A stretch of 24,407 bases of DNA from a virus, in the IMG/VR virus record IMGVR_UViG_3300021375_000156, positions 1-24,407 of that record; one strand, 5' to 3'. The translations under genes and the position numbers were made by a program. The notes under the pieces were generated by a model, which was not told where the DNA came from, did not search any database, and worked only from the letters and a program-made list of their open reading frames with translations. The number at the start of each line of letters is the position of its first letter. The first letter of the stretch is position 1. Shown in pieces: positions 2,673 to 24,407 of this stretch.

Positions 2673-2852
2673 ATGAAACAATCAGAATTTGACAAGGTGT
2701 TTAGCCAAAAGTTTTCAGGCTTTACAAGTAGGATGTGGTTAGATTATTGTGATGAAAATAATAATCCATTCGCAAAAACAAAAGATTACGCAGGATATGT
2801 AATTGAAAATTTTAAATATTTAGTTAAGAGATTTAACGAGGAGAACAGATGA
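2673..2852 (+). CDS. 59-residue hypothetical protein upstream of nrdB
   Basis: This small open frame starts one base after the zinc-ribbon stop and ends in an ATGA overlap with the nrdB start (ATG 2849-2851, TGA 2850-2852). The protein has no membrane segment and no motif I recognise. It is mixed-charge, with aromatic residues spaced along its length (FDKVF, FSGF, MWLDY, FKYL), and is probably one or two helices. The nrdB ribosome binding site GAGGAG (2838-2843) lies in its last codons. Gapless packing on both sides and continuous codon use support a real gene. The function is unknown. Confidence 0.6.
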   Translation: MKQSEFDKVFSQKFSGFTSRMWLDYCDENNNPFAKTKDYAGYVIENFKYLVKRFNEENR

Positions 2853-3832
2853 GCTTATTAGACACAAGAGATTATTACAAACCATTCGATAACCCTTGGA
2901 TGTTTGACTACTATGTCTTACAAAACCAAATGCACTGGATGCCGGAGTCAGTACCTTTACACACCGATGTAAAAGATTGGCAAGAGTTAGATTCAAAAGA
3001 AAAGAATCTATTAACACAAATCTTTAGATTGTTTACTCAATCTGATGTAGATGTTGGTGCAGGTTACGTTGATAGATACATGCGTATCTTTAGAAAGCCT
3101 GAAGCTAGAATGATGATGGGTTCTTTTGCTAACATGGAATCTATTCATCAACATGCTTACAGCTTACTCCTTGATACAGTTGGTATGCCTGAGATAGAAT
3201 ACAAAGCTTTTTCAGAGTACGAAGAGATGGCAGATAAACACGAGTACGTACATAAGATTAAGACAACTAAGTCTGACAAGAAAAGTATTGCAAAAACTTT
3301 AGCAGTCTATTCAGCTTTTACAGAAGGACTACAATTGTTTAGTAGCTTTGCAATCTTGTTAAACTTTCCAAGGTTCGGCAAGATGAAAGGTATGGGACAG
3401 ATAGTTACTTACTCTATACGGGATGAGTCTATGCACGTTGAAGCTATGACTAAACTCTTTAGAGAATTTATCCAAGAGAACTTAGATATCTGGACAGATG
3501 ATTTTAAAGCAGAACTCTACGAGATTTGTAGACAAATGGTAACACTAGAAGATAAGTTCTTAGACCTAGTGTTTGACATGGGAGACCTTGAAGGTCTTAC
3601 AAAGAAAGATATGTATGCTTACAATAGATACATAGCTGATAGAAGATTGTTACAGCTTGGTCTTAAAACAAACTATGACCAACGTGAGAATCCTCTAGGT
3701 TGGTTGGATGAAGTGATGGGTGTTGAACATCAGAACTTCTTTGAAGGTCGTGCAACTTCTTATATGAAGGCAGGACTAAGGGGTAGACAGGATAAGATAA
3801 CCTTTGCAAACTTGGAGAGTGATAATGGTTAA
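2849..3832 (+). CDS. nrdB: Class Ia ribonucleoside-diphosphate reductase, beta subunit
   Basis: This is the ferritin-like small subunit that houses the metal centre and tyrosyl radical and passes the radical to NrdA. The 327 residues contain the full ligand set by alignment to E. coli NrdB: Asp66 (QSDVD), Glu97 and His100 (ESIHQHAY), Glu159 (TEGLQ), and Glu193 and His196 (RDESMH). The radical tyrosine is kept as Tyr104, at the position of E. coli Tyr122, so this is a tyrosyl-radical enzyme and not a class Ic type that lacks it. Near the C-terminus, HQNFFEGRATSY resembles other phage NrdB sequences. The start is well placed: GAGGAG at 2838-2843 lies five bases before the ATG, which overlaps the previous stop. 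The downstream gene overlaps the last codons. I see no insertion or frameshift. Confidence 0.95.
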   Translation: MSLLDTRDYYKPFDNPWMFDYYVLQNQMHWMPESVPLHTDVKDWQELDSKEKNLLTQIFRLFTQSDVDVGAGYVDRYMRIFRKPEARMMMGSFANMESIHQHAYSLLLDTVGMPEIEYKAFSEYEEMADKHEYVHKIKTTKSDKKSIAKTLAVYSAFTEGLQLFSSFAILLNFPRFGKMKGMGQIVTYSIRDESMHVEAMTKLFREFIQENLDIWTDDFKAELYEICRQMVTLEDKFLDLVFDMGDLEGLTKKDMYAYNRYIADRRLLQLGLKTNYDQRENPLGWLDEVMGVEHQNFFEGRATSYMKAGLRGRQDKITFANLESDNG

Positions 3833-4043: not shown

Positions 4044-4058
4044 CTCTAATCTTTTCTT
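4022..4058 (+). terminator. Possible weak terminator hairpin at the convergent junction
   Basis: A perfect seven-base inverted repeat, AGAGTTA (4022-4028) and TAACTCT (4041-4047), encloses a 12-base loop and is followed on the plus strand by a T-rich run (AATCTTTTCTT, 4048-4058). The stem is AT-rich and therefore weak. On the minus strand the trailing sequence is not T-rich, so if it works it should mainly stop plus-strand transcripts. It overlaps the stop codons of both converging genes. Confidence 0.35.
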
Positions 4059-4327
4059 ACATCTTTCTTACCATCAGCCCGAGCTATCCTAGCAACGTCT
4101 GGTGGTAGTTTTAATGCAGTACGAACTAAGGTGTCGATACGTATCATATCATTATCCATTTGCCTGATTCTATCAATCAAGGAAACAATCATCGTGTGTT
4201 GCGTATCTAGTTTTTTATGGATGTCTGCAATTAAACTTTTAAAGAGTGTCCATACTAAATAACCTAGACCAATTGCAGCAGCAGCCGGAATACCTATAGT
4301 TTCTATGGCACTTATAAACTCTTTCAC
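4046..4327 (-). CDS. 93-residue membrane protein with C-terminal coiled coil, GTG start
   Basis: This is the last gene of the minus-strand late block. A single hydrophobic segment spans about residues 10-30 (IGIPAAAAIGLGYLVW), followed by a charged, heptad-like helix (about 32-70, with KKLDTQHTMIVSLIDRIRQM) and a basic tail. The start codon is GTG at 4327-4325, overlapping the TAG stop of the holin gene as TAGTG; the next internal Met is at residue 46, beyond the membrane segment, so GTG is preferred. Being directly downstream of lysozyme and holin suggests a lysis accessory such as an inner-membrane spanin or antiholin. No lipoprotein partner is visible, so the specific role is inference. 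Confidence 0.6.
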   Translation of the reverse strand: MKEFISAIETIGIPAAAAIGLGYLVWTLFKSLIADIHKKLDTQHTMIVSLIDRIRQMDNDMIRIDTLVRTALKLPPDVARIARADGKKDVRKD

Positions 4328-4803
4328 TACTCATCTTTATCCGGAGTATTAGAAGCACCAAAGTAAAAACTTATCACAGCACTTGCCAACCCTCCTAAAT
4401 ATCCTAACACTAAAGATACTATAGTATCTGAAGTACTGTCAGGTGGTTGTAGGGTTACTAAAAATATATAACTAAAAAAGCCTGTTAAAGTAATTGTTCC
4501 TAATATTTTTGGTGTCCAATCTTTACTAAACTTTTGTCTAGCATCTTGTTTATCGTTCACCTCTAATTCAAATACGTCAACCTCTAGCTCTTTCATTTGA
4601 ACTTTAAAATCGTTCTCAGCTATTTTAAGTTCAGCCATTTGCTCGGCTGTTAAATTATTCATAGCCTGTTCAAGAGACTTAGGGTTGTTTTTTACACCTA
4701 AAACACTACTTAGTATTTGACCTGCTTGTCCTCCTATTGGACCACCAAGTGCAGCACCAAGAGTTGGGGCTAGAGTACCTAATATACCTTTTAGTTTTTT
4801 CAT
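4327..4803 (-). CDS. Holin of the GTA_holin_3TM (DUF3154) type
   Basis: This is a likely holin, which permeabilises the inner membrane so that the lysozyme encoded two genes upstream can reach the cell wall. The 158-residue layout is typical of the family as I know it. An N-terminal Gly/Ala-rich amphipathic or hydrophobic segment (about 8-35, LGAALGGPIGGQAGQI) is followed by LGVKNN. A long charged helix (about 43-90) follows, with the NDFKVQM element, then W96TPKILG leading into two membrane segments (about 99-118 and 127-149) and a short polar tail. The ribosome binding site TAGGAG (4810-4815) lies six bases before the ATG. The gene is coupled to its downstream neighbour through TAGTG. The family assignment rests on sequence pattern and lysis-gene context. 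Confidence 0.75.
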   Translation of the reverse strand: MKKLKGILGTLAPTLGAALGGPIGGQAGQILSSVLGVKNNPKSLEQAMNNLTAEQMAELKIAENDFKVQMKELEVDVFELEVNDKQDARQKFSKDWTPKILGTITLTGFFSYIFLVTLQPPDSTSDTIVSLVLGYLGGLASAVISFYFGASNTPDKDE

Positions 4804-12922: not shown

Positions 12923-15100
12923 CTAACCTTTAAATGCTTTAATTAAATTAGCAACTGCACTAATAGATGAATTGAAATTTTCTGCAGTACTTGTTTCATT
13001 TGCTAACGCTGTAGCATAAAGCTGTGTTTCTCTATTTTCTTTTCCTTCAGCAGCTCTGAAATCAAAGTCTGCTTGATCTCGTAGCTCCTGCCATAAAAAA
13101 GCTTGTGCTTGTGATGACATGTTAAAAGCATTTTGAGAGTTTTGCATAGCTACTTGATTAGCAGCAGCAGTGTTTAGTGTATTTACTTGTCTTCTCCAAG
13201 CTAAGTTAGATTGCTCAATAGCTTGTGCGTTAGCTGTATTAAACTTATCTCTATCAAATTCTATCTGCTCATTAAACTGATTAATTTGATTTACCATTGC
13301 AGCATTAGCTTTATTTAAATCAGCTTCTGTTTGAAACTCTAAAGCTTGTCTAGCATTAATTTGTTGTGCATTAAACTGAGACATAGCATTAGTTTGCTGT
13401 ACGTTAAACTGTTCTACTTGAGTAGCTAAGCTTGACATAAACTGCTGAGTTTGATTCTCACTAGCAGCATTGAATTGTCTTGCAGCATTTTGAGCTGCTT
13501 GATTACTTAATAACGTTTGTTGAGCTTGTTGAGCTTTTAATACATTAGCTTGTTGCTCGTTATTAAGATTGGTTAAATCTGTTTGTAAGAAAGCATTAGC
13601 ATTGTTTATTTGAGCTTTCTGATAGAAGTCTGCTTCAGCTAAGTTAGCTTGAGACATTAGTACAGCATTTTGAATTGTAGCTTGTTGTCTGTTACTTGCT
13701 TCAGTTAAACCTACAGTTTGTAAGAACTTACTGTTAGATAATGCTGTTTGTTGGTCAGCACTAAACTGAGCCATATCCATTTGAAAAACTTTACCAGCGT
13801 TATCGAGTGCTGTCTGCTGTCTAAACTGAGCATTTTGTATTTCAGCTTGAGCTTCAATAGCTTTCTGTTGTCCTACACTTTGCTGTATTGCTTGTGCATT
13901 AGCTTGTGCTAAAGGTACAGCAGATTGTATAATAGCATTGAGCAAGGCATCTCTACCTACTGTTGAAGCTTCCATACCACGCTGTGCTAACATAGCTTCT
14001 ACACTAGCTACAGCAGGTCTAGCCCACGTAGGAATCTCACCTTCTTCAATACCACTTAATAAACTATCTAACTGATTAGATACTAAAGCTTCTTCAGGTA
14101 GACCAGCAATAACTCCACGTTCAGCTTCTGTTAAATCCATTAACCTAGCTTCTAGGTCTTCAGGGTCGTTACCTAATATAGCTATATCTTCAGCACTAAC
14201 ACCAGCGTTAGCTAACTGTTTCTTAGCCCTTGTAACACGTGCTAGAGTTGTACCTGCTACTTGAGCAGCTTCTGCCATAGCGTTAGGACTTATAGTTCCT
14301 ACAACTCTTTCAGTTAGTGCACCGGGAATAATCTCTACTTCAGCAGCTTCAATAGGAGCTACACGTTCTACTTCTGCAGCTTCTGCTAATGCTTCAGGTC
14401 TTACTTCACCTTCAGCTACAGCAACTTCAGGAGCTTCTGTAATCTGTGCTGCTTCCATCTGTGCAGCAGTGAGTGGTTCAGGAGCAGCTACTGCTGGTGC
14501 AGCTTCTGCGGTTACAGCTTCTGGAGCTGTTGGCATTGCAGCAGTTTCAGCTACTAAAGCTTCTCTAGGTGCGACTTCTCTAGCTACACCCATATCGCCT
14601 ACTTCAACTTCTTTAGGTGCGTCTATTTGAGGAACACCTGTCATGTCTCCCGACACTAATTGTTCTGCTCTAGCTTTTGCATCGCCCATTGCAGGTGAAG
14701 GAGTTGGAGCTGGTGTTGGCTGTGTAGCAGGTTTAGTTTCTATGTCAAGTCCGGGTCCACCAAAGCCGGGACCTCCGGGAGCATTAGGTACTTTAGTAGG
14801 TAAGTTAGGATTATATCCGGGAGTATTGGGAATATTCATATCAAATTTAATATTTCGATTATCCTCTTCTCTTAAAACTTGTGGACTATTATCTTTACTT
14901 GAAAAAGAATCTACAGGATTAGAAGTAATACCTCTGAGTTCTTCTCTAGTTGGTTCATATAACGTATTCCTTACTCCTTGAGGATTTTTAAATACATCTA
15001 TTTTACCCGGAGTTCCTTTTGCATAACCAACTCTACCACCTTTAGTATAGTCTTGTCTAGCTGTTCCACCACTTCTTTTTCTATTTCTTCTTTTTGACAT
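12923..15100 (-). CDS. 725-residue repeat-rich virion protein
   Basis: This is a three-part protein whose function I do not recognise. Residues 1-40 are basic and contain QDYTKGGRVGYAKG, a motif I recall at the start of other marine phage proteins. Residues 85-135 are Pro/Gly-rich. Residues 155-260 are a low-complexity stretch of Ala, Glu, Val and Pro (EAVTAEAAPAVAAPEP). Residues 280-400 look like a folded helical region (SAEDIAILGNDPEDLEARL, GLPEEALVSNQLDSLL). Residues about 422-684 are a Gln/Asn/Ala-rich helical repeat with a 22-residue period, resolving to 11 residues towards the end. The composition suggests a long fibrous or rod-like component, such as a tail, tape-like or core protein. 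It is placed between the tail-protein genes and the ejection-type genes. TAGGAAA (15106-15112) precedes the start. Confidence 0.65.
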   Translation of the reverse strand: MSKRRNRKRSGGTARQDYTKGGRVGYAKGTPGKIDVFKNPQGVRNTLYEPTREELRGITSNPVDSFSSKDNSPQVLREEDNRNIKFDMNIPNTPGYNPNLPTKVPNAPGGPGFGGPGLDIETKPATQPTPAPTPSPAMGDAKARAEQLVSGDMTGVPQIDAPKEVEVGDMGVAREVAPREALVAETAAMPTAPEAVTAEAAPAVAAPEPLTAAQMEAAQITEAPEVAVAEGEVRPEALAEAAEVERVAPIEAAEVEIIPGALTERVVGTISPNAMAEAAQVAGTTLARVTRAKKQLANAGVSAEDIAILGNDPEDLEARLMDLTEAERGVIAGLPEEALVSNQLDSLLSGIEEGEIPTWARPAVASVEAMLAQRGMEASTVGRDALLNAIIQSAVPLAQANAQAIQQSVGQQKAIEAQAEIQNAQFRQQTALDNAGKVFQMDMAQFSADQQTALSNSKFLQTVGLTEASNRQQATIQNAVLMSQANLAEADFYQKAQINNANAFLQTDLTNLNNEQQANVLKAQQAQQTLLSNQAAQNAARQFNAASENQTQQFMSSLATQVEQFNVQQTNAMSQFNAQQINARQALEFQTEADLNKANAAMVNQINQFNEQIEFDRDKFNTANAQAIEQSNLAWRRQVNTLNTAAANQVAMQNSQNAFNMSSQAQAFLWQELRDQADFDFRAAEGKENRETQLYATALANETSTAENFNSSISAVANLIKAFKG
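13049..13837 (-). repeat. 22-residue (11+11) protein repeat domain in the 725-residue gene
   Basis: The encoded stretch (residues 422-684) divides into consecutive 22-residue units without gaps, for example AQFSADQQTALSNSKFLQ (+4), TEASNRQQATIQNAVLMS (+4) and AEADFYQKAQINNANAFL (+4). In the last third an 11-residue step is clear, with Asn often leading the unit: NVQQTNAMSQF, NAQQINARQAL, NAAMVNQINQF, NEQIEFDRDKF, NTANAQAIEQS, NLAWRRQVNTL. One unit (about 532-554) is a residue longer. An 11-residue period fits a right-handed or straight hendecad coiled coil. Confidence 0.65.
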
Positions 15101-15122
15101 AGTTATTTCCTATATACCTATT

Positions 15123-15365
15123 TTACTTAACTTCAAAGAGTTTGTCAAGCTTTTCACTGATTTTATCCATTCTTTCCATAATGATGGTCATATCGTTTCT
15201 TAGCTCATCTTTGGTTACATAATCTTTTGCAACCTCTTCACGGGTTTTGTTCAGCAATATATCTTGTCTTCTAAGCTCTGAAGTGTTCTGCCTAATCTGA
15301 AACCAGATAGGGGCTAAGACTAACGTTATAAAGATGTTCCAAATGATATATGCTGATAGTTCCAT
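15123..15365 (-). CDS. 80-residue membrane protein with coiled coil
   Basis: A single N-terminal membrane segment (about residues 4-24, SAYIIWNIFITLVLAPIWF) is followed by a charged helix and a regular heptad region near the C-terminus (about 50-78, YVTKDELRNDM then MERMDKISEKLDKLF). This one-helix plus coiled-coil layout is common in small phage proteins near lysis or tail genes, including some holin-like and spanin-like proteins, but no family can be named. It starts one base after the stop of the DUF4376-like gene (TAA-C-ATG) and has no strong ribosome site, which suggests coupling. It resembles the 93-residue gene at 4046-4327 in architecture, but not clearly in sequence. Confidence 0.6.
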   Translation of the reverse strand: MELSAYIIWNIFITLVLAPIWFQIRQNTSELRRQDILLNKTREEVAKDYVTKDELRNDMTIIMERMDKISEKLDKLFEVK

Positions 15366-15366
15366 G

Positions 15367-15969
15367 TTATGCTCCTAAGATTGGAAACTCACCTAAAGGT
15401 CTGACAGGTGGTTCTGCATCGTTGTACTCGTATAAAGCTGCTAAAGCATCTACGTCTGCAGCACCGTCAATAGCTGTACACATGTCATTAGACTTTGTAC
15501 GCACTGCAGCTCTCCACGTTGCTATATCGCTTGGTACTGCTGTACCACCTTCTGCAGCTCTAACCACCATCCAGTCAGTGCCTTGTAAAGTGCTACCGGC
15601 TTGAGAGTTTATTACAGCTTTGTGTTGTGGTTTTAAACCATATTGCTTAACTTCACCTTCTGTACCAAGCCCATCTGTTTCTTCTTGAGCTGTAAAGAGT
15701 ACATCATCTATAGGTTTAGCAGTTGCCACACCGTATGAAGCTGTTACCACACCGTCTGCAAAGTCAAAGCTTTGATTAGTATTAATATAATACTCGTTAC
15801 TTTTTAGATTTGTGTTGTCGATAACGACCTCATAAATCCCCATAGCTTCTAGTTCAGAAGCTGACCAAAGCATAAAGATATTAGCAGGATAGTTAACTTC
15901 TCCCACTGTTATAGCTTTGGGTCTTGTGTAAATTTGGGTTACACTTCCCGATTCTACTAATGCCCACAT
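15367..15969 (-). CDS. 200-residue tail-associated protein with DUF4376-like C-terminus
   Basis: This is likely a small tail-fibre-associated or tail-fibre-assembly protein. The N-terminal half is beta-rich (MWALVESGSVTQIYTRPKAI, then VNYPANIFMLWS). A central QYGLKPQHKAVINSQAG segment leads to a helical C-terminal part (about 140-185) with TWRAAVRTKSNDMCTAI and DVDALAALYEY, which resembles the DUF4376 region of phage tail proteins as I know it. It follows the second DUF7483-like gene after a 36-base gap, the largest in the window, and has a clear TAGGAG (15977-15982) seven bases before the ATG. It lies at the end of the adsorption block, which fits an accessory of the tail fibres. The exact role is uncertain. 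Confidence 0.6.
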   Translation of the reverse strand: MWALVESGSVTQIYTRPKAITVGEVNYPANIFMLWSASELEAMGIYEVVIDNTNLKSNEYYINTNQSFDFADGVVTASYGVATAKPIDDVLFTAQEETDGLGTEGEVKQYGLKPQHKAVINSQAGSTLQGTDWMVVRAAEGGTAVPSDIATWRAAVRTKSNDMCTAIDGAADVDALAALYEYNDAEPPVRPLGEFPILGA

Positions 15970-16010
15970 AATTTTTCTCCTATAATAAAGTGGTTAGTTA
16001 AATGTTTAAC
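15970..16010 (-). promoter_or_regulatory. 36-base spacer with ribosome site and short inverted repeat
   Basis: This is the longest non-coding gap in the window. It holds TAGGAG (15977-15982) for the gene starting at 15969 and, at its upstream side, an inverted repeat with six-base arms, GTTAAA and TTTAAC (15997-16002 and 16005-16010), overlapping the stop codon of the gene above. The sequence is very AT-rich, so a minus-10-like TATTAT can be picked out, but I see no convincing partner element and do not call a promoter. Confidence 0.3.
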
Positions 16011-17085
16011 GTGCTGTACACGGGACACCTGTTGATGTCGTAAAAGGATTTTCTGCAAATGCCATGTAGATTATTGTATTTCCGCTTCCGTTCCATGTTC
16101 CGTCTGCATAGTCTCGTATTTTGAAGCCATTAGATAAAAAATCTAATGAGTCATAAGCTGTTCCTTGTGTTGCATTGGTTGTATTGGCATTTAATCCATT
16201 GTTGACAACATTGTATGGATTCCTTTTGTTATCCCACATATACCAATTTTTAGTTGCATTTGCATTTTTAACCATCACAAAAGCAGGTTTAAATCCTGTA
16301 TAGACAAACGGACCATTGTCATTTCCATTGCCGACATAACTGCCAAACTTGCTGTAGCCTTGTTTTTCTGCGAAGCAGTAGGCTAGATAATCTGTACTAG
16401 CAAGTGCTGTATTACCTGATTGCATTCCAAAGACTGAAGATGTCATACCTGCACCCCAAGCATTTGAGTAACTTGCTTCAATACTAATTCTTTCTAAGGC
16501 AACAATATAACTGGTATTGCTGCTACCACCAGTTAAACCTTTATGCCAAGTCCACCAGTTACTTGTACTGTCTCTGCTTTTTGTAATAACCATTGCAGGT
16601 ATTTGTCCTAATCCATGTCCTACTGAAAAAATTCCTGTGCCTGAACTAGGTGCTGAAGTAAAAGTAACAATACTAAATCCAGCATCTTGATTGGCTTGTA
16701 CTGTAGAAGTTATAGAACCATCCGTATTGCTTGAGGTCGTACCACCATTCGCTTTCCATTGCCATCCAACAAAAGTATTTCCAGTATGGTTGGGTACTTG
16801 TGAGCCATCATCTCCAACAGTAAAACCATTGGTGTCAAAAGACTCTACCAAGTTTGTCCAAGTTGTATCTCCTGTAGTTGTATTTGAAGATAAATATACT
16901 GAAGTTCCTCGTGAGGAATCTTGTAAAAAGTGATTGTATCCAACATTTCTATTTTTCAACCAAACTAAATCAGGCTGTAAATCACTATTACCATCATTTG
17001 TTAATGCTCTACCATCAACATCATTACCAGTCCATAACAAAGTCTGAAAATGTGCAGATGGGTCGTCTATATTTGTATAAGCCAT
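16006..17085 (-). CDS. DUF7483-like tail protein, copy 2
   Basis: This is a probable receptor-recognition or tail-fibre component of the family I know as DUF7483, common in marine phages. The 359 residues start AYTNIDDPSAHFQTLLWTGN and have three similar modules: around 38-115 (QPDLVWLKN, QDSSRG, FVGWQWKANG), 163-243 (IPAMVITKS, WWTWHKG, AYCFAEKQG) and 267-347 (KPAFVMVKN, WYMWDNKRNP, IIYMAFAEN). It ends TSTGVPCTAR, nearly the same as its paralogue at 18898-19959. The start lies one base after the LamG-SPRY stop (TAATATG), with GCGGAG encoded in the upstream gene's last codons as a likely ribosome site. No signal peptide or membrane segment is seen. Sequence similarity along the whole length makes it a duplicate of the other DUF7483-like gene. 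Confidence 0.75.
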   Translation of the reverse strand: MAYTNIDDPSAHFQTLLWTGNDVDGRALTNDGNSDLQPDLVWLKNRNVGYNHFLQDSSRGTSVYLSSNTTTGDTTWTNLVESFDTNGFTVGDDGSQVPNHTGNTFVGWQWKANGGTTSSNTDGSITSTVQANQDAGFSIVTFTSAPSSGTGIFSVGHGLGQIPAMVITKSRDSTSNWWTWHKGLTGGSSNTSYIVALERISIEASYSNAWGAGMTSSVFGMQSGNTALASTDYLAYCFAEKQGYSKFGSYVGNGNDNGPFVYTGFKPAFVMVKNANATKNWYMWDNKRNPYNVVNNGLNANTTNATQGTAYDSLDFLSNGFKIRDYADGTWNGSGNTIIYMAFAENPFTTSTGVPCTAR

Positions 17086-17086
17086 A

Positions 17087-18523
17087 TTATCCGTACTCCG
17101 CTAAATTTTTAGTGCATAAGGCGTAGTAGCCTGATGGGGGTGCATATTCAAAAGTTCCGTAGCCATTGGCGTCTGTTGCTGCTGAAGATATTGTTCCTGC
17201 TGTATACCCACCAAAATTGCAGTCAGCACCAATATTAGACCCATACTCGCTTGTGCCTATAAAATATCTAGCTTCAGTATCAGGAAGGTTTTGTGCATTA
17301 GTTCCTGTTACTGGGTTTTGTGAGTTTATATATGTTCCGTTTTTTGCAAAATAAACTTTACCATTATCGGTATCTAAAGCTACGCTTATAATATCATTAT
17401 TGGTAAAAGTAGTTCCTATAACTACTATTGTTCCATTATTGTAAATGTTTCCATTGGCACTATACAAACCAACTGAATTAGTGCCTGAATACCCATAATA
17501 AATTTCAGGAAATCCAGTTCCATTTCCAGCACCTATAAAATAGTAGTCTTCAGAACCAACGCCTACAAAGTGATTACCTGCACCAATAATTTTAAATTCT
17601 GCATACCACTTACCACTACCCACTGCTATTGTATTAGCCCAACTGTTCCAATCGTTACCACCTTGATGTGAAATTCTAGTTGCACCTTCTACATATGTAA
17701 AAGCATTGGCTCTTGTATTGCCTATAACATTAGGTATAGCAAAATTATTAGTAGGTGTGTCAGTTGCTTGGTTTGCGGATGTGATGTTGTTTAGGGTAAA
17801 GTCGTGGTTATTACCGCTTTGGTCTTCACCTAAGTTTGAAGCATTGCTAAAATCTAAATAAAATCCATTATTACCATAAGTGCCTGTATAAGCTTTAGGT
17901 TTCCATATACCACTATCATCGTCGTATTCACCAAAGTCTGCTGATGTTAGTTGTTGCCCATCAACATAATGTACTTCTGCTATATATCCATTGTATCTAT
18001 AAACACCTTCGCCTATCATTATATCTTTGCCATTTTCACCAATAGCCAAATCTGCATTTTGTGTAATGTTAGATGTGTTGTCAGTTGACCATCCCGGCTC
18101 TACTCCATTTCTGTAAACTTTAAATCTATTTGTTGAAGTAGCTTGAGTTGTGTCTATAGCTATTACCACATGATACCAAGCTGAAGTATCTCTAATTGCT
18201 CCATAACTATTTCCTACACTAAAATTAGTTCCTCCAAGTCGCATTCCATATGTTTCTAATGAACCATATATATCTCTACCCCAACGAAGTGATAAATAAT
18301 TTCCTGAAGCATCATCTCCAAACTGAAAAAGTCCAATATTTGAGCCTATTTCAGTTCTTTTGAACCACATACTAATAGTTCCTTTCTTTTGGCTTGTAGG
18401 TGCTGAGTCATAAGTATGAGTCATTTTTTCAACATTATCAGCTTCAAACTTACAAGAGTTATCAATCTCATACCCACCCGTAGCTGAGTTAGCTCCACCG
18501 ACTCCTAGATTAATATCTGCCAT
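17087..18523 (-). CDS. LamG plus SPRY domain tail protein, copy 2
   Basis: This is a two-domain lectin-like protein, probably displayed on the tail and binding a surface glycan or protein. Residues about 45-230 form a LamG/concanavalin A-like domain: GTISMWFKRTE, then WYHVVIAIDTTQATSTNRFKV, GYIAEVHYVDGQQL and GIWKPKAYTG. A linker follows (QSGNNHDFTLNNITSANQAT). Residues about 285-470 form a SPRY-like domain (GKWYAEFKIIGAGNHFVGVG, then NDIISVALDTDNGKVYFAKNG). The C-terminus, FEYAPPSGYYALCTKNLAEYG, is a strongly conserved tail shared with copy 1. It begins one base after the stop of the 118-residue gene (TAATATG). It pairs with the DUF7483-like gene that follows. Ligand and virion location are inferred from domain type. 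Confidence 0.75.
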   Translation of the reverse strand: MADINLGVGGANSATGGYEIDNSCKFEADNVEKMTHTYDSAPTSQKKGTISMWFKRTEIGSNIGLFQFGDDASGNYLSLRWGRDIYGSLETYGMRLGGTNFSVGNSYGAIRDTSAWYHVVIAIDTTQATSTNRFKVYRNGVEPGWSTDNTSNITQNADLAIGENGKDIMIGEGVYRYNGYIAEVHYVDGQQLTSADFGEYDDDSGIWKPKAYTGTYGNNGFYLDFSNASNLGEDQSGNNHDFTLNNITSANQATDTPTNNFAIPNVIGNTRANAFTYVEGATRISHQGGNDWNSWANTIAVGSGKWYAEFKIIGAGNHFVGVGSEDYYFIGAGNGTGFPEIYYGYSGTNSVGLYSANGNIYNNGTIVVIGTTFTNNDIISVALDTDNGKVYFAKNGTYINSQNPVTGTNAQNLPDTEARYFIGTSEYGSNIGADCNFGGYTAGTISSAATDANGYGTFEYAPPSGYYALCTKNLAEYG

Positions 18524-18524
18524 A

Positions 18525-18881
18525 TTAGCTTAGTGTTAAGTTTTGATTCCTACCTACTTCTAACCACTTAGAACCATTGTATCTAAATGTAAACAAATCA
18601 CCTTTAGAAGCGGTAGTAGTTAGTGTAGGTGCTGTGTCGTCTTTAAATTCATAGACAGCGTTCCATGCAAGTGTTCTAGAGCCTGTACCGTCTTGTATAA
18701 CTAGTAAAGCTATGTATTGTCCATTGGCTATAGCGTTTGTTGGAGCTGCTAAAGTTCTGTTACCAGCAAGAGTTACTTTGGCTACAGGGCTTGTAGAAAC
18801 ATCCCAAGCTATGGTAGCACCATCAGTTAATGTTGCTTCTGCGATTGGTAGTAGTTCTACCGGTATTTTAGTTGTTGCCAT
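18525..18881 (-). CDS. 118-residue stand-alone copy of the tail-fibre C-terminal domain
   Basis: This small beta-rich protein is clearly related to the last 110 or so residues of the long fibre encoded at 21393-24407. Shared landmarks in the same order are TIAWD/AIAWD, F/L-x-AP-(S/T)NA, RTLAWNAVYEF versus RTIAWNTVFEF, TAPTLTTTASK versus TAPTVTATANK, and DLFTFRYNGSKWLEVGR versus DIFSFRYNGSVWQEIGR, then QNL. The fibre copy sits at a C-terminus, so this domain may cap, trimerise or bind a receptor. The gene lies exactly between the two LamG-SPRY/DUF7483 pairs and has its own TAGGAG (18892-18897), ten bases before the ATG. It has no signal peptide. Function is inferred only by domain relation. 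Confidence 0.7.
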   Translation of the reverse strand: MATTKIPVELLPIAEATLTDGATIAWDVSTSPVAKVTLAGNRTLAAPTNAIANGQYIALLVIQDGTGSRTLAWNAVYEFKDDTAPTLTTTASKGDLFTFRYNGSKWLEVGRNQNLTLS

Positions 18882-18897
18882 ATTTATAGTTCTCCTA

Positions 18898-19959
18898 CTA
18901 TCGGGCTGTGCCCATAATTCCTGTTGATGTTACGAATGGATTTTCTGCAAATGCCATGTAGATGATACTTCCACCTGATGCGTTAAAACCATTCCATGTT
19001 CCTCTAACTTTAAAACCATTAGATAAAAAGTCTATGAGTTCTGATGAAGCTGTGGCTTCTGCATTAGCATTATGGGGCATTAAATATTTGTCTACTACAT
19101 TAGATGGATTTCTTTTACTGTCATACATAACCCAATCTCCTGTAGAATCAATTCTTTTAACTATTACAAAAGCAGGTTTAAAGCCTGTATAGATGAACGG
19201 ACCATTAGAGTTGCCATTACCGACATAACTACCAAACTTGCTGAAGCCTTGTTTTTCTGCGAAGCAGTAGGCTACATAGGTTTGACTTGCTTGTCCTGAT
19301 GCCGCAACATTTAATCCAATAGTGCTTGTGTCAAAACCTGCTCCCCACATATTTGCTTCAAAGGCTTGTGCACCATTAGAATGTAATCCTATATAATAAT
19401 TTGGTTGTCCTAAGTCTTTATGCCAAATCCACCAACCACCTGTAGCACTTCTTGATTTTGTTATCACCATAGCAGGTTTAACTCCCAACCCATGCCCTGC
19501 TGTAAAATTACCTGAACTACTAGGAGCAGTATAAGTAACAATACTAAACCCTGCATCTTGATTGGCTTGAACTGTTGTTGTTACATCTCCATCTGTATTA
19601 CTAGCTGTCGTACCACCATTGGCTTTCCATTGCCAAGCTACATAAGTCCTACTACTTACATTTACACTACCACCACTAGCATCAGCACCTAAACTAAATC
19701 CATCACTATCAAATGAAGTCTGTGCATCTGTGTAAGTTATTTCAGCATTAGTTGTATTTGTAAATAAAGTTTTTGTTGCTCCTCTTGATGAATCTTGTAA
19801 GGAGTGCCAACTTGCATTGCTTCTTGATTTTATCCACACCCAATCAGGTTGCATATCGCTGTTACCATCATTGGTTATAGATTGAGTAGACCCATTACCA
19901 GTATAAGTAGCAACCTGAAAATATGCAGATGGGTCGTCTATTGCTGTGTATTTACCCAT
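18898..19959 (-). CDS. DUF7483-like tail protein, copy 1
   Basis: This 353-residue paralogue of the protein at 16006-17085 has the same ordered landmarks: DDPSAYFQVATYTGNG, QPDWVWIKSRS, LQDSSRG, WQWKANGGTT, QANQDAGFSIVTYT, GHGLGVKPAMVITKSRS, WWIWHKDL, YCFAEKQGFSKFGSYVGNGN, GFKPAFVIVKR, IIYMAFAENPF, then TSTGIMGTAR. The most variable parts lie between residue 60 and 105 and in the loop after WHKDL. The start overlaps the LamG-SPRY stop as TAATG (19961-19957), with TGGAGGAA (19967-19974) about nine bases ahead inside that gene. The tight pairing with a LamG-SPRY gene in both copies suggests the two products act together on the tail. Confidence 0.75.
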   Translation of the reverse strand: MGKYTAIDDPSAYFQVATYTGNGSTQSITNDGNSDMQPDWVWIKSRSNASWHSLQDSSRGATKTLFTNTTNAEITYTDAQTSFDSDGFSLGADASGGSVNVSSRTYVAWQWKANGGTTASNTDGDVTTTVQANQDAGFSIVTYTAPSSSGNFTAGHGLGVKPAMVITKSRSATGGWWIWHKDLGQPNYYIGLHSNGAQAFEANMWGAGFDTSTIGLNVAASGQASQTYVAYCFAEKQGFSKFGSYVGNGNSNGPFIYTGFKPAFVIVKRIDSTGDWVMYDSKRNPSNVVDKYLMPHNANAEATASSELIDFLSNGFKVRGTWNGFNASGGSIIYMAFAENPFVTSTGIMGTAR

Positions 19960-21386
19960 TAGGATGTTCCTCCATATTCTGCTAAGTTTTTACCACATAG
20001 TGCATAGTATCCAGATGGTGGAGCATACTCGAATGTTCCATATCCGTTTTCGTCTGTTGCTGCACTTGCTGGTGTGTATGATGTAAAGCCACCAAAGTTA
20101 AAATAACCACCACAGCCATTTAAATAAACGCTACCAACAGGCATAGCAAAATCACCGATACTTGTAAAAATTGGGTTGCCACTATTTTGGATTGTTCCGT
20201 TTTTATAAAGATACATATCTCCATTGTCCATATCTAAAGCTACACCTGCTATGTCATTTACTGAAAAGGTATTAAATTTACCGCTTATAATAGAACCATT
20301 AACAAATGTACCGCCATTCGGTAAAAGGGCAACTTTAGAAGGATAACCAGAGCCACCTCCTGCTGTTTGGGTTGAATCAGTAGATTCAGAGCTAGTGTAG
20401 CCTATGGCAGACCAATATGCTGTTCCACCAGTACCAATGTGTTTAAACTCCCAGTACCATTTACCTCTACTAACACCTATCGTTCCTACAACAGTATTAC
20501 CAGAAGCACCAGTAGAAAACAAACTTGTCGCACCTTGAGAGATAACAGTATTAGCTGCGGTCAACATAACTGGATTCATCGTACAAAAATTATTAGTCGG
20601 AGTATCTGTAGCTTGGTCGGCTGCTGTGATGTTGTTTTCTGTGAAGTCATTTCCGTTACCACTTTCATCATCACCTAAGTTTGCACCATCTACAAAGTCT
20701 AAATACCAACCATTAGTACCAAAAGAACCTGTGTAAGCTTTGGGTTTCCATATGCCACTATCTTCATCAAATTCACCAAAGTCTGTTGGTGCTAGTGCTT
20801 CTCCATCTATGTGATAATAGTCTGCTATATATCCTGCAAAATAACCAAACTCATTTCCAGCGTAAGGTTTAGTACCAATTCGCATAACATTATTTTGTAC
20901 ATTATTTACTGTATCTGCGTTTTGCGATGGGTAGCTTGTGGCATCAAAAGCTGTTTCTTGTACACCATTAACATACAACTTCCATCTATTAGATTCAGTT
21001 GCTTGAGTTGTATCTACAGCTAAAACAATATGATACCAAGCAGAAGTGTCTCTAAATCTTCTTGAAGTGTAATTATTGGTTGAACCAACAACTCTAAATT
21101 CTAATTTATCTGCGTTGGTGTCTTGCCATGTATGAAACTGCATACTAACCATGTTAGTGCTATCAACTCCACTAAAAAACAAATTATGTCCGTTAGCATC
21201 GGCTGCACCAGCTTTTAGTTCAGTTCTTTTAAACCAACAACTAACAGTAAATGTTTTTCTATTACTTGTAGAGCCTATAGTTCTGCTTAAATATTCAGTA
21301 TTATCAGGCTCAAGTTTTACAGAGTTATCAATATCATACCCAGTAGATATGCTTCCACGATTAGCTGTGCGTTGTAATACTTCCAT
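19959..21386 (-). CDS. LamG plus SPRY domain tail protein, copy 1
   Basis: This 475-residue paralogue of the protein at 17087-18523 has an N-terminal GYDIDNSVKLEPDNTEYL, then a LamG-like domain (about 40-215) with FTVSCWFKRTEL, WYHIVLAVDTTQAT, GYIADYYHIDGEAL and GIWKPKAYTG. A linker follows (DDESGNGNDFTENNITAADQ). The SPRY-like domain (about 290-460) includes GKWYWEFKHIG and DIAGVALDMDNGDMYLYKNG. The conserved C-terminus is YGTFEYAPPSGYYALCGKN then LAEYGGTS. It follows the fibre gene after six bases with no strong ribosome site and so may depend on read-through from it. It probably carries a glycan- or protein-binding site on the tail. Domain names come from sequence pattern, not a search. 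Confidence 0.75.
   Translation of the reverse strand: MEVLQRTANRGSISTGYDIDNSVKLEPDNTEYLSRTIGSTSNRKTFTVSCWFKRTELKAGAADANGHNLFFSGVDSTNMVSMQFHTWQDTNADKLEFRVVGSTNNYTSRRFRDTSAWYHIVLAVDTTQATESNRWKLYVNGVQETAFDATSYPSQNADTVNNVQNNVMRIGTKPYAGNEFGYFAGYIADYYHIDGEALAPTDFGEFDEDSGIWKPKAYTGSFGTNGWYLDFVDGANLGDDESGNGNDFTENNITAADQATDTPTNNFCTMNPVMLTAANTVISQGATSLFSTGASGNTVVGTIGVSRGKWYWEFKHIGTGGTAYWSAIGYTSSESTDSTQTAGGGSGYPSKVALLPNGGTFVNGSIISGKFNTFSVNDIAGVALDMDNGDMYLYKNGTIQNSGNPIFTSIGDFAMPVGSVYLNGCGGYFNFGGFTSYTPASAATDENGYGTFEYAPPSGYYALCGKNLAEYGGTS
19969..19973 (-). promoter_or_regulatory. Shine-Dalgarno GGAGG embedded in the upstream coding end
   Basis: On the minus strand GGAGG lies nine bases before the ATG at 19959 and is formed by the codons for the Gly-Gly of the conserved LAEYGG ending of the LamG-SPRY protein. 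It supports the TAATG-coupled start of the downstream DUF7483-like gene. Confidence 0.6.
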
Positions 21387-21392
21387 AAATTA

Positions 21393-24300
21393 TTAAGTTT
21401 GTGCTAAGTTCTGTACTCTTCCGATTTCTTGCCAGACTGAACCGTTGTAACGGAAACTAAAAATGTCTGTCTTGTTAGCTGTAGCAGTCACCGTAGGAGC
21501 TGTACTAGCTGCAAATTCAAATACTGTGTTCCAAGCAATTGTTCTTGGTGTAGCACCTTGTGCAAGTTCTACAGAGATTATAGCACCTTCTACAGCGTTA
21601 CTTGGTGCTGAGAATGTAGTGTTTTCTGTAGTGACGTGATAAGCGTTAGCTGCTGCTGTAGAGTCCCATGCAATTGCATTAGAGCTAGAAGTTAATGCAA
21701 CTTGTGCAATCCTAGCTGAACCTGAAACAGATATGCTACTTGCAAGTTTATCACTTGTTACTGCATCATCTTGAAGTGTAGCAGTGGCTACTGAATCATT
21801 GGTTGGAGCATTAATACTTGTTTGTGTATATGAAATAGCTTCTACAGCTACACCGGTTGCAGGGGCTGTAGAGAATGTTAATGTAGTTCCAGAAGTACTA
21901 TAGTTAGCCTTGCTCTGATAAACTCCATCAAAATATACTTGTACGTTGTTCTCACTTACAGGAGCTACAGACAGTGTTAAAGTTGTATCACTGTTATCAC
22001 CTGTCATAGTGTCAACAATCATATTAGAACCACTAATGCTACTTCTAATGTGATAAACTGTAATGACTCTACCGTTTGCAGGAGCTTCAGAGAACGTTAA
22101 AGTAGTTCCTGAAACACTGTAACTGTCTTGTGCTTGGAAGCCACCATCAATAAATACTAATAAATTGTTTTCACTTGTTGGTGCTGTTGTAAGTGTAAAG
22201 GTTGTATCACTACCATCACCTGCAAAGATTTGAGGTTCCATAGCTGAACCAGCTCCACCACTACCTGCAATAGCTCCCCATTCACCATCAGCGTAACCTT
22301 CAAACTGAGCATCGGTTGTGTTATATCTAAAGTAACCGTTAGCACCTGTAGGTCTTTGAGCTGTTGTACCACTTGGTACGTGTATCGCATCTGTAGCACT
22401 TCCAACGTCTAATGAAACATCTGGAGAAGCATTTAGAATACCTACACGATTATTAGTTGAATCAACTTTTAAAGTGTTTGTATCGACTGTAAGGTCTCCA
22501 GAGATTGTACCACTAGAAGCTGTAAGTCCTGCAATAATTAAATCTGCAGCAGCATAACCTGTAGCACCTGTGTTGACCGTAGTAGCTGGTTCTGTTTGCG
22601 TATCAGCAAATAATCTAAATGTATTATCTGTTGATGCATCATAGAATAGACCAGCATATTTAGTTGTGCTTGACTCTACATATTTACCATAAAGTCCAAA
22701 GTCTGTAGCGTTACCTGTGTTACCATTGGTAAGCCCTGTAAAGTTATCGTCAGATACAATAGGACCAGTTTGTGTAGTCGTACCTGTAACTGTTAAGTTT
22801 CCTGAAACTACTAAGTCATTAGAGACTGTTAAATCATTGGTAATGGTTACATCGCTTGGTAAACCATAAGTAATTGTACCTGAACTTTCAGAAACATCAA
22901 CCTCGTTAGAAGTTCCAGCAAATGTTATAGTTCCTCCAAGAGCTATAGCTGTTGAACTTGTTACTGCAGAAACTGTAATACTTGAGTTTGCAAGTTTTGC
23001 ATTTGCAATTGAACCTGCTAACTGAGCATTAGTTATAGTTCCTGTTAAAGAACTTGTCGGGTAATTCGTTGCATCAGTAAGGTCAAAGGCTGGTGTAGTA
23101 TCTGAAGCACCTAGTGCTAAACTTATACCACCGTATGAAACTGTAGAGTTTGAAAGTTTACTGTTAGCAATACTTCCTGCTAACATTGTATTCGTTACTG
23201 TACCACTATCGCCTGAACCTACTAGAGTTCCTGCTGTAGCTGGTAAAGTTAAAGTTGGGTTACCACTAAAGCTACCGTGTGCTGGTGCTTGTAATCTTGC
23301 ATAATGAGCATTAGCTGATTCACAATAAAAATCTATGTATGATTGTGTGCCACCATTTTTAATTGATATAGCACCTTGTGATATTTGTACACCGTTAGTT
23401 GAACCACCACCAATACCTAAAGATGTTGTAATCTCTGCTGCTGCTGGAATACCTATTGTAACTGCGTTACCTGTAGCAGAAGTTTCAATCTCGTTAGATG
23501 TACCACCGATTGTTAAAGTTTCACTATCAAGGTCTATGGCTATCGTGCCACTGTCTGTTGTTAAATCTAAATCTTGAGCAGTAACTTGAGAATCTACATA
23601 AGCTTTAATAGACTGCTGGGTAGCTAATTGTGTAGCTGAATCAGAAGCCATATTATCTTCATCTAATATTGCAGTACCTGATACGCTTGTATTGATTACA
23701 GGGCTTGTAAGTGTTTTGTTTGTTAAGGTTTGAGAGCCTGTCAGTGTAGCAACTGTAGAGTCTATATTAACTGTTACAGTGTTACCTGAACCTACTGTAT
23801 CTAAACCTGTTCCACCAGCGATTGTGAGAGCTTCTGAGTCGAGGTCAATTGAAAGTGCACCTCCACTATCTCCTTGAAAATCTAAGTCCTGTGCGGTCAC
23901 CTGAGAGTCTACATAAGCCTTGATAGATTGTTGGGATGCAATACCTGTAGCACTGTCTGAAGACATATCATCTTCATCAAGAAAAGCTTTGCCATCTAAA
24001 AGATTTAACTCTGCTGCAGTTGATGTAACACCATCAAGAATGTTGAGTTCTGCAACTGTTGAAGTAATACCATCAAGAGTATTAATTTCAGCAGCAGTAG
24101 CAGTGACCCCATCAAGAATATTTAGTTCGGCTGCTGTGGATGTTACTCCATCTAATATATTTAGTTCAGCAGCAGTAGAGGTAATAGCAGTACCATTAAA
24201 ATTAATAGCATCTAAGTAAGCTGTACCGTCAATGTAAATATCTTTCCACTCTTTTGAAGAGCTTCCTAAGTCATAAGTGTTATCTGTGTTTGGTATAACA

Positions 24301-24407
24301 TTTGAATCAATCTCTGCAGCTAAGTTAATGCTGTCAGTGTCTGCATCACCAAATGTAAGGTTACCGGAGATAGTAGCGTTACCTGTGACTGTAAGATTAC
24401 CACCGAT
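21393..24407 (-). CDS. Long repetitive tail fibre protein, 5' partial
   Basis: The frame is open to the right edge, giving 1004 visible residues with no start codon before an internal Met at 23966, so the gene begins outside. The visible protein is a beta-rich fibre. First comes a Gly/Thr-rich part with YDLGSSSKEWKDIYIDG, a phrase typical of phage tail fibres. Then there are five tandem 13-residue units (TSTAAELNILDGV type), two copies of a roughly 55-residue block (LDEDxMxSDSAT, QQSIKAYVDSQVTAQDLD, IDLDSE), long Ser/Thr/Gly repeats, and two 60-residue repeats (GD.SDTT.TL..AP.SENN..V..DG). The C-terminal domain is shared with the 118-residue gene. It is probably the main host-recognition or tail-spike-like fibre heading the adsorption operon. 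No enzymatic motif is seen. Confidence 0.8.
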   Translation of the reverse strand: MGGNLTVTGNATISGNLTFGDADTDSINLAAEIDSNVIPNTDNTYDLGSSSKEWKDIYIDGTAYLDAINFNGTAITSTAAELNILDGVTSTAAELNILDGVTATAAEINTLDGITSTVAELNILDGVTSTAAELNLLDGKAFLDEDDMSSDSATGIASQQSIKAYVDSQVTAQDLDFQGDSGGALSIDLDSEALTIAGGTGLDTVGSGNTVTVNIDSTVATLTGSQTLTNKTLTSPVINTSVSGTAILDEDNMASDSATQLATQQSIKAYVDSQVTAQDLDLTTDSGTIAIDLDSETLTIGGTSNEIETSATGNAVTIGIPAAAEITTSLGIGGGSTNGVQISQGAISIKNGGTQSYIDFYCESANAHYARLQAPAHGSFSGNPTLTLPATAGTLVGSGDSGTVTNTMLAGSIANSKLSNSTVSYGGISLALGASDTTPAFDLTDATNYPTSSLTGTITNAQLAGSIANAKLANSSITVSAVTSSTAIALGGTITFAGTSNEVDVSESSGTITYGLPSDVTITNDLTVSNDLVVSGNLTVTGTTTQTGPIVSDDNFTGLTNGNTGNATDFGLYGKYVESSTTKYAGLFYDASTDNTFRLFADTQTEPATTVNTGATGYAAADLIIAGLTASSGTISGDLTVDTNTLKVDSTNNRVGILNASPDVSLDVGSATDAIHVPSGTTAQRPTGANGYFRYNTTDAQFEGYADGEWGAIAGSGGAGSAMEPQIFAGDGSDTTFTLTTAPTSENNLLVFIDGGFQAQDSYSVSGTTLTFSEAPANGRVITVYHIRSSISGSNMIVDTMTGDNSDTTLTLSVAPVSENNVQVYFDGVYQSKANYSTSGTTLTFSTAPATGVAVEAISYTQTSINAPTNDSVATATLQDDAVTSDKLASSISVSGSARIAQVALTSSSNAIAWDSTAAANAYHVTTENTTFSAPSNAVEGAIISVELAQGATPRTIAWNTVFEFAASTAPTVTATANKTDIFSFRYNGSVWQEIGRVQNLAQT
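21825..22230 (-). repeat. Two tandem ~60-residue repeats near the fibre C-terminus
   Basis: The first unit reads FAGDGSDTTFTLTTAPTSEN, NLLVFIDGGFQ and SGTTLTFSEAPANGRVITVY. The second reads MTGDNSDTTLTLSVAPVSEN, NVQVYFDGVYQ and SGTTLTFSTAPATGVAVEAI. They look like two copies of a small beta domain. Boundaries are approximate. Confidence 0.7.
23502..23666 (-). repeat. Fibre block repeat, copy 2
   Basis: This encodes LDEDNMASDSAT, then TQQSIKAYVDSQVTAQDLD and TDSGTIAIDLDSETLTIGG, the second copy of the block at 23811-23981. The intervening part includes a TGSQTLTNKTLTSPVIN phrase that is common in fibre shafts. Confidence 0.75.
23811..23981 (-). repeat. Fibre block repeat, copy 1
   Basis: This encodes LDEDDMSSDSAT, then SQQSIKAYVDSQVTAQDLD and a DSGG..SIDLDSEALTIAGG end. 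Copy 2 lies at 23502-23666. The QQSIKAYVDSQVTAQDLD core is identical in both copies. Confidence 0.75.
23991..24182 (-). repeat. Five tandem 13-residue units in the tail fibre
   Basis: Five consecutive 39-base units encode T(S/A)T(A/V)AE(L/I)N(I/L/T)LDG(V/I); the last lacks the final residue and runs into KAFLDEDD. The bases differ at many third positions, so selection seems to act on the protein and not the DNA. This repeat type is familiar from marine phage fibres and probably builds a trimeric shaft. Confidence 0.8.

Follow-up and report, generated by a model that had tools for sequence, protein, structure and literature searches.

To our knowledge, almost nothing is known about the receptors of the phages that kill SAR11 and other bacteria abundant in the sea. 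In T4 (gp37 and gp38) and in Mu and P2 (fibre genes with Tfa), recognition genes that can be exchanged and an assembly factor come after the fibre, and mosaic exchange occurs at conserved segments. Here we analyse one assembled viral fragment of 24,407 bp from a marine metagenome contig (IMG/VR record IMGVR_UViG_3300021375_000156, referred to as the window), in which a tail fibre gene adjoins two sets, or cassettes, of genes encoding a LamG-SPRY protein and a DUF7483 protein. The locus resembles the tip adhesins of T4, Mu and P2 in combining a fibre, exchangeable recognition genes and an assembly-factor-like gene, but the proteins are unrelated, and the window differs in having LamG and SPRY heads, a DUF7483 protein of three repeats, and several copies of the set.

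Nearer counterparts are found among marine phages. The SAR11 phage Skadi-1 (Polarivirus skadi) has a hypervariable region at 13,646–15,713 that is reported as associated with an arms race (PMC10504331). This region coincides with a DUF7483 gene (13353–14408, with the family match at 13392–14387) and a SPRY gene (14408–15730) beside a putative tail fibre gene. The window too has a SPRY-lectin gene and a DUF7483 gene adjoining the tail fibre, but Skadi-1 carries one cassette and the window two; in the accessible part of the Skadi-1 paper (PMC10504331) one open reading frame is uncharacterised, and no domain-by-domain exchange, fibre C-terminal part or multiple cassettes are reported. Of the genes that can be identified in metaviromic islands, fibre and lectin-like genes rank with the most frequent; in marine phages such genes under-recruit, and it is in the recognition domains that their variation is concentrated (Mizuno et al. 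2014, PMC3909814). That study dealt with C1q and fibre ends rather than with the module described here, and it observed under-recruitment, whereas in the present work swaps were identified by comparison of contigs. The Pelagibacter phage isolates HTVC103P and HTVC104P each have two DUF7483 genes, and in HTVC103P two LamG-SPRY/DUF7483 pairs (gp68-67 and gp63-62) lie upstream of a homologue of the window gene p725. The corresponding proteins are, however, only 33–44% identical to those of the window, and the pairs are split by three other genes (441, 106 and 333 aa). Relatives of a further window protein, p1288, are confined to three phages from Pelagibacter HTCC7211 (HTVC103P, HTVC104P and HTVC115P), and those of p725 occur in these three, in HMO-2011-type and in other phages. 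The window phage belongs near HTVC103P-type phages.

The structural genes of the window lie on the minus strand, as do all features given in this paragraph and the next, in the order fibre, LamG-SPRY-1, DUF7483-1, CT2, LamG-SPRY-2, DUF7483-2 and p200, followed by p80, p725 and further virion genes. CT denotes the C-terminal domain of the fibre and its homologues. We consider it likely that this region encodes an exchangeable module for host adhesion at the tail fibre tip, present in two unrelated versions, the second of which was acquired by recombination. As judged from sequence comparison, each version consists of CT, LamG-SPRY and DUF7483 in fixed order, and the number of versions in the slot between the fibre and p80 varies. 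The fibre gene (21393–24407), whose 5' end is cut by the window end, matches phrog_892 and other tail fibre families, and its C-terminal domain CT1 (21402–21704) is 76–93% identical to the CT of about 30 marine phage contigs. The loci used for comparison (L numbers) were retrieved by similarity to window proteins, so that identities to the window are inflated. The conserved p80 gene (15123–15365) marks the downstream edge of the slot and is 62–94% identical in phages of the same backbone with 0, 1 or 2 cassettes.

The two adjacent LamG-SPRY and DUF7483 pairs noted in a first-pass annotation of this DNA are indeed present. Cassette 1 comprises LamG-SPRY-1 (475 aa, 19959–21386; LamG 20586–21362, SPRY 19971–20591) and DUF7483-1 (353 aa, 18898–19959), and cassette 2 comprises LamG-SPRY-2 (478 aa, 17087–18523; LamG 17741–18496, SPRY 17090–17746) and DUF7483-2 (359 aa, 16006–17085). 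The copies are 58% identical in DUF7483 (E = 2e-136) and 45% in LamG-SPRY (E = 1e-110), far above chance. Both DUF7483 proteins match PF24299 (E = 5.4e-117 and 3.7e-106 for copies 1 and 2) over positions 1–330 of 330, with scores of 391 and 355 bits above the curated cut-off of 27 bits. The LamG-SPRY proteins match phrog_27411 (E = 7.5e-84 and 1.3e-71, respectively), and the family profile matches solved SPRY structures (E = 6e-10). The SPRY family of Pfam (PF00622) is matched by copy 2 at E = 3.5e-7 and by copy 1 at 0.007, below the cut-off. The LamG halves of the window's own proteins gave no Pfam match, so that their assignment is certain only via relatives: of 56 family members, 25 have a Laminin_G_3 match and 45 a SPRY match. 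An NCBIfam scan gave no useful match, and no paper that names DUF7483 was found in the literature searched. A functional link between the LamG-SPRY and DUF7483 products is likely, because their gene order is conserved and natural LamG-SPRY-DUF7483 fusion proteins exist. Giant fused proteins with several tandem DUF7483 units were also seen in Synechococcus phage S-B68 (L124, with eight stretches matching DUF7483), phage C72C1 (L123) and Roseobacter phage CRP-406 (L121), which suggests that the unit can be stacked. In the Pelagibacter phage isolate HTVC202P (gp49/gp50, L120:8497-9973) two overlapping frames take the place of a single LamG-SPRY gene, a possible frameshift.

The 118-aa gene between the two pairs, CT2 (18525–18881), is homologous to the ~100 residues at the C-terminus of the fibre (48% identity, E = 5e-26), and because of this homology the repeated unit is taken as CT plus LamG-SPRY plus DUF7483. 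On these comparisons the unit is larger than first annotated, with CT as a third part and, across relatives, p200 as a fourth member. In the window, the fibre terminates in the first CT, and a free-standing gene encodes the second; in relatives, the CT that precedes LamG-SPRY is found at the end of a long fibre, at the end of a ~220-aa protein, or free-standing with 118–158 aa. Two conserved types can be distinguished with only ~48% identity between them, type I including the fibre end of the window and type II including CT2. The relatives of CT2 include a free-standing gene in L229 (97%) and genes in L111, L015 and L099 (84–85%). In the L229 contig, of which L203 is also part, the LamG-SPRY and DUF7483 proteins adjoining this CT are only ~40% identical to those of the window.

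The p200 gene (15367–15969, minus strand) probably encodes a fibre assembly factor; its match to phrog_4912 ('tail fiber assembly') is weak (E = 1e-4 over 58 residues), and its position fits such a role. The sets run CT, LamG-SPRY, DUF7483, p200 in 42 cases and CT, p200, LamG-SPRY, DUF7483 in 37. A strict tie of p200 to the end of DUF7483 was considered and rejected: a p200 homologue directly follows DUF7483 in 98 of 186 cases and is missing there in the other 88, many of which have p200 after CT. Two further window genes, p158 (phrog_1544) and p93 (4046–4803, minus strand), are 77% and 86% identical to genes directly after p200 in L015 (L015:9031-9785), a phage of different gene order, so both may travel between lineages.

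The first-pass annotation had read the locus as a duplicated cassette retained as a unit. A probable adsorption module does stand beside the tail fibre in two diverged sets, but neither duplication as an event nor retention of the pair as a unit was borne out. Each copy is closer to other phages than to its partner, an outcome that the first-pass annotation had itself named as refuting its reading. DUF7483-1 is closest to L001 (70%), and DUF7483-2 to L005 (98%) and then to L008, L081 and L082 (66–67%); among the matches of copies 1 and 2, respectively, the partner ranks 4th and 7th for DUF7483, 37th and 7th for LamG, 11th and 20th for SPRY, and 42nd and 22nd for CT. In a tree of 56 sequences, copy 2 clusters with L005, L084, L008 and L081 at full support, and copy 1 groups with L001, L016, L002 and L006 (support 91). 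The approximately unbiased test rejected the copies as a sister pair (p = 0.03), which is moderate evidence from a quick tree. The end motifs cited for the duplication, LAEYG and TAR, are family-wide and are therefore no indication of a recent event: LAEYG ends 91 of 203 LamG-SPRY frames, LAEFG ends some of the others, and TAR ends 136 of 196 DUF7483 frames.

A tandem duplication in place, followed by divergence that broadened the host range, would account for the shared order and size of the two sets and for their being co-linear direct repeats at ~2.85–2.9 kb spacing with 71–86% nucleotide identity. It would also fit the high rank of the window pair among all cassette pairs (99th percentile for DUF7483, 98th for SPRY and 93rd for LamG), although retrieval of the set with window proteins raises these ranks. 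On the other hand, for all four parts each copy has relatives in other phages that are nearer than its partner, the sister pair is rejected, and CT1 and CT2 fall into different types, each conserved separately. Synonymous divergence (dS, synonymous substitutions per site) between the copies is 0.9–1.7 and near saturation, so that the ratios of nonsynonymous (dN) to synonymous rates, dN/dS 0.29–0.47, show only purifying constraint on both copies. A recent duplication is rejected by the nearest neighbours and the tree test; an ancient one, before the spread of both lineages, is possible, and duplication as a whole we judge unlikely. The most likely and simplest history is that recombination at the adhesion slot brought in a second cassette unrelated to the first.

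The strongest new result, on the contig comparisons, is exchange at the level of single domains: between phages, LamG, SPRY and DUF7483 are each replaced singly, and the breaks fall at conserved linkers. Since the three reassort independently, the proposed retention of the pair as a unit is unsupported. Cassette 2 of the window and that of L005 (contig 3300025674_000464) are 100% identical in CT2 over the 76 residues present, 99% in LamG and 98% in DUF7483, whereas SPRY-2 is only 28% identical in amino acids and 46% in nucleotides over residues ~276–440, with its last ~20 residues again 100% identical. In a blastn comparison this appears as a gap at 17218–17741 within sequence of 95.7–98.8% identity, and downstream p200 and p80 are 94–100% identical before p725 drops to 68%. 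From this pattern, a ~3.7-kb block is common to two phage lineages with the SPRY head replaced, the replaced segment (residues ~251–440, 17204–17773, minus strand) having conserved linkers on both sides. Conversely, cassette 1 shares with L061 a SPRY domain of 94% amino acid identity, with LamG and DUF7483 at ~53%.

A survey of 158 distinct cassettes extended these cases. In 32 pairs one or more domains are at least 80% identical: SPRY alone in 14, LamG alone in 12, DUF7483 alone in 2, SPRY and DUF7483 in 2, LamG and DUF7483 in 1, and all three in 1. With each cassette counted once, seven SPRY-only and six LamG-only pairs stand against one whole-cassette pair. Identical cassettes of one virus had been collapsed beforehand, so these counts concern distinct viruses and whole-cassette sharing within species is undercounted. 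The breaks coincide with conserved stretches of LamG-SPRY-2 (residues 201–260 and 441–478), where conservation is 0.55–0.74, as against 0.13–0.4 in SPRY; linkers and ends are conserved, and the LamG and SPRY cores drop to 0.13–0.2. The SPRY-2 change spans the whole length of the domain rather than scattered sites, and no reverse transcriptase gene, such as would accompany the template/variable repeat pair of a diversity-generating retroelement, was found among the genes scanned in the window, which is a fragment. The clear recombination of domains at conserved linkers could also be expected if the second cassette were a silent store donating domains to the expressed one. Both copies are, however, intact and lie in one tightly packed gene run, with nonsynonymous change (pN) well below synonymous (pS), and no near-identical tracts are found between them; we give a silent donor scarcely any credence.

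The first-pass annotation had proposed counting cassettes in related phages, and this yielded one, two or three sets. In phages of the same backbone, the slot between the fibre and p80 holds 0, 1 or 2 cassettes. L138, L145, L140 and L151 have none and L153 has one, the backbone of the latter being shared through p725 (87% nucleotide identity), a lysozyme-region gene (93% nucleotide identity) and p80 (91% amino acid identity). Two cassettes in the layout of the window occur in 3300030104_000130 (L017 and L130) and 3300030101_001144 (L325 and L326), which share a near-identical first cassette; we infer the join of the cassettes in both because the contig ends fall between them. Two or three copies are present in L220/L221, L100 and L070, and tandem copies in L307 and L316. 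All copy counts are lower bounds, because IMG/VR contigs are fragments. In L070 the middle of three DUF7483 copies (after about 9400) is in pieces in different frames, and copies may therefore decay.

The window could itself be an assembly chimera that joins two co-occurring phage populations: it is a marine metagenome contig, and the spot is hard to assemble, since contigs of relatives often stop between cassettes. Independent contigs of the same backbone nevertheless show this two-cassette layout, tandem cassettes are found in L307, and among isolate genomes HTVC103P has its two pairs and HTVC104P two DUF7483 places, so that we assign a chimera very little probability. Assembly seems to break near CT. 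The ends of 3300030104_000130 have 161 nucleotides in common, 159 of them identical, inside CT, and a third contig with two DUF7483 genes (L327/L328) likewise has its ends between cassettes.

Structure prediction with AlphaFold2 gave an all-β model of DUF7483 with a mean predicted local distance difference test score (pLDDT) of 92.8 and a predicted template modelling score of 0.92. Profile comparison of DUF7483-1 revealed three homologous repeats at residues ~1–118, 134–237 and 236–353 (pairwise E = 2e-14, 4e-15 and 2e-11), and the strand pattern of the model repeats in step with them. Strong matches of the model in BFVD are long phage proteins, one of them named DUF7483. The CT model (pLDDT 89.3) has as its top six fold matches only phage capsid spikes or tailspikes, and CT matches PF25692 at E = 0.0027, below the cut-off.

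From fold and position, we suggest that a trimeric fibre ends in the CT β domain, at which the single DUF7483 chain of three β repeats and the LamG-SPRY lectin-type adhesin would assemble, probably with help from p200 at the fibre tip. LamG and SPRY would act as the variable heads for binding, and CT and the conserved linkers may double as mating surface and recombination handle. The second version would have entered by recombination from another phage, the free-standing CT2 would let it dock, and the virion would gain two receptor specificities or two alternative tips. Several observations weigh against an adhesion module acquired in this way. The DUF7483 model has no significant match to any solved structure in the PDB, the spike-like fold matches of CT are weak and below significance (E = 0.007–0.046), and p200 is not duplicated in the window. 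In addition, the two closest two-cassette relatives are broken between cassettes, and the window itself is an assembled 24.4-kb fragment without reads. Finally, phrog_19943, a family with both LamG-SPRY and DUF7483, carries the label 'head and packaging, virion structural protein'.

This label, together with the generic binding character of the LamG and SPRY folds, would suit lectin-like proteins that cover the virion and help it to attach loosely to polysaccharide. Such decoration we regard as improbable: the genes usually adjoin a fibre or CT and a fibre-assembly-like gene, CT is the fibre's own C-terminus, the Skadi-1 region is hypervariable beside the fibre, and phrog_24898, the DUF7483 family nearest in length, is labelled tail fiber protein. 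An adhesion module at the fibre tip thus remains the reading we prefer. A broader version of it, put forward tentatively and with somewhat less than even confidence, is that LamG, SPRY and DUF7483 cartridges form one pool common to unrelated marine phages, which plug single domains from it into CT sockets numbering none to three, with DUF7483 adapting a single-chain head to a trimeric fibre and host range becoming combinatorial. If so, the window phage would carry two loaded sockets.

The one-at-a-time swaps of gripping domains suggest how such viruses may change their attachment. The comparison gives a named anatomy (CT, LamG, SPRY, DUF7483 and p200) to a region known from field data only for its hypervariability, and it shows which piece changed at each step. 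It also supplies natural near-isogenic pairs, such as the window and L005, whose module is conserved but for the SPRY head, so that the question of which domain sets the host becomes directly testable. For DUF7483, a widespread uncharacterised family, the predicted model offers a first structural description as three β repeats.

Elsewhere in the window, genes for the large and small subunits of ribonucleotide reductase (631–2526 and 2849–3832) lie on the plus strand, opposite to the structural genes, and are adjoined by a small endonuclease gene (4–375). The fibre contains a run of near-identical TAAELNILDGVT repeats at 24000–24407 (minus strand), just before the window end.

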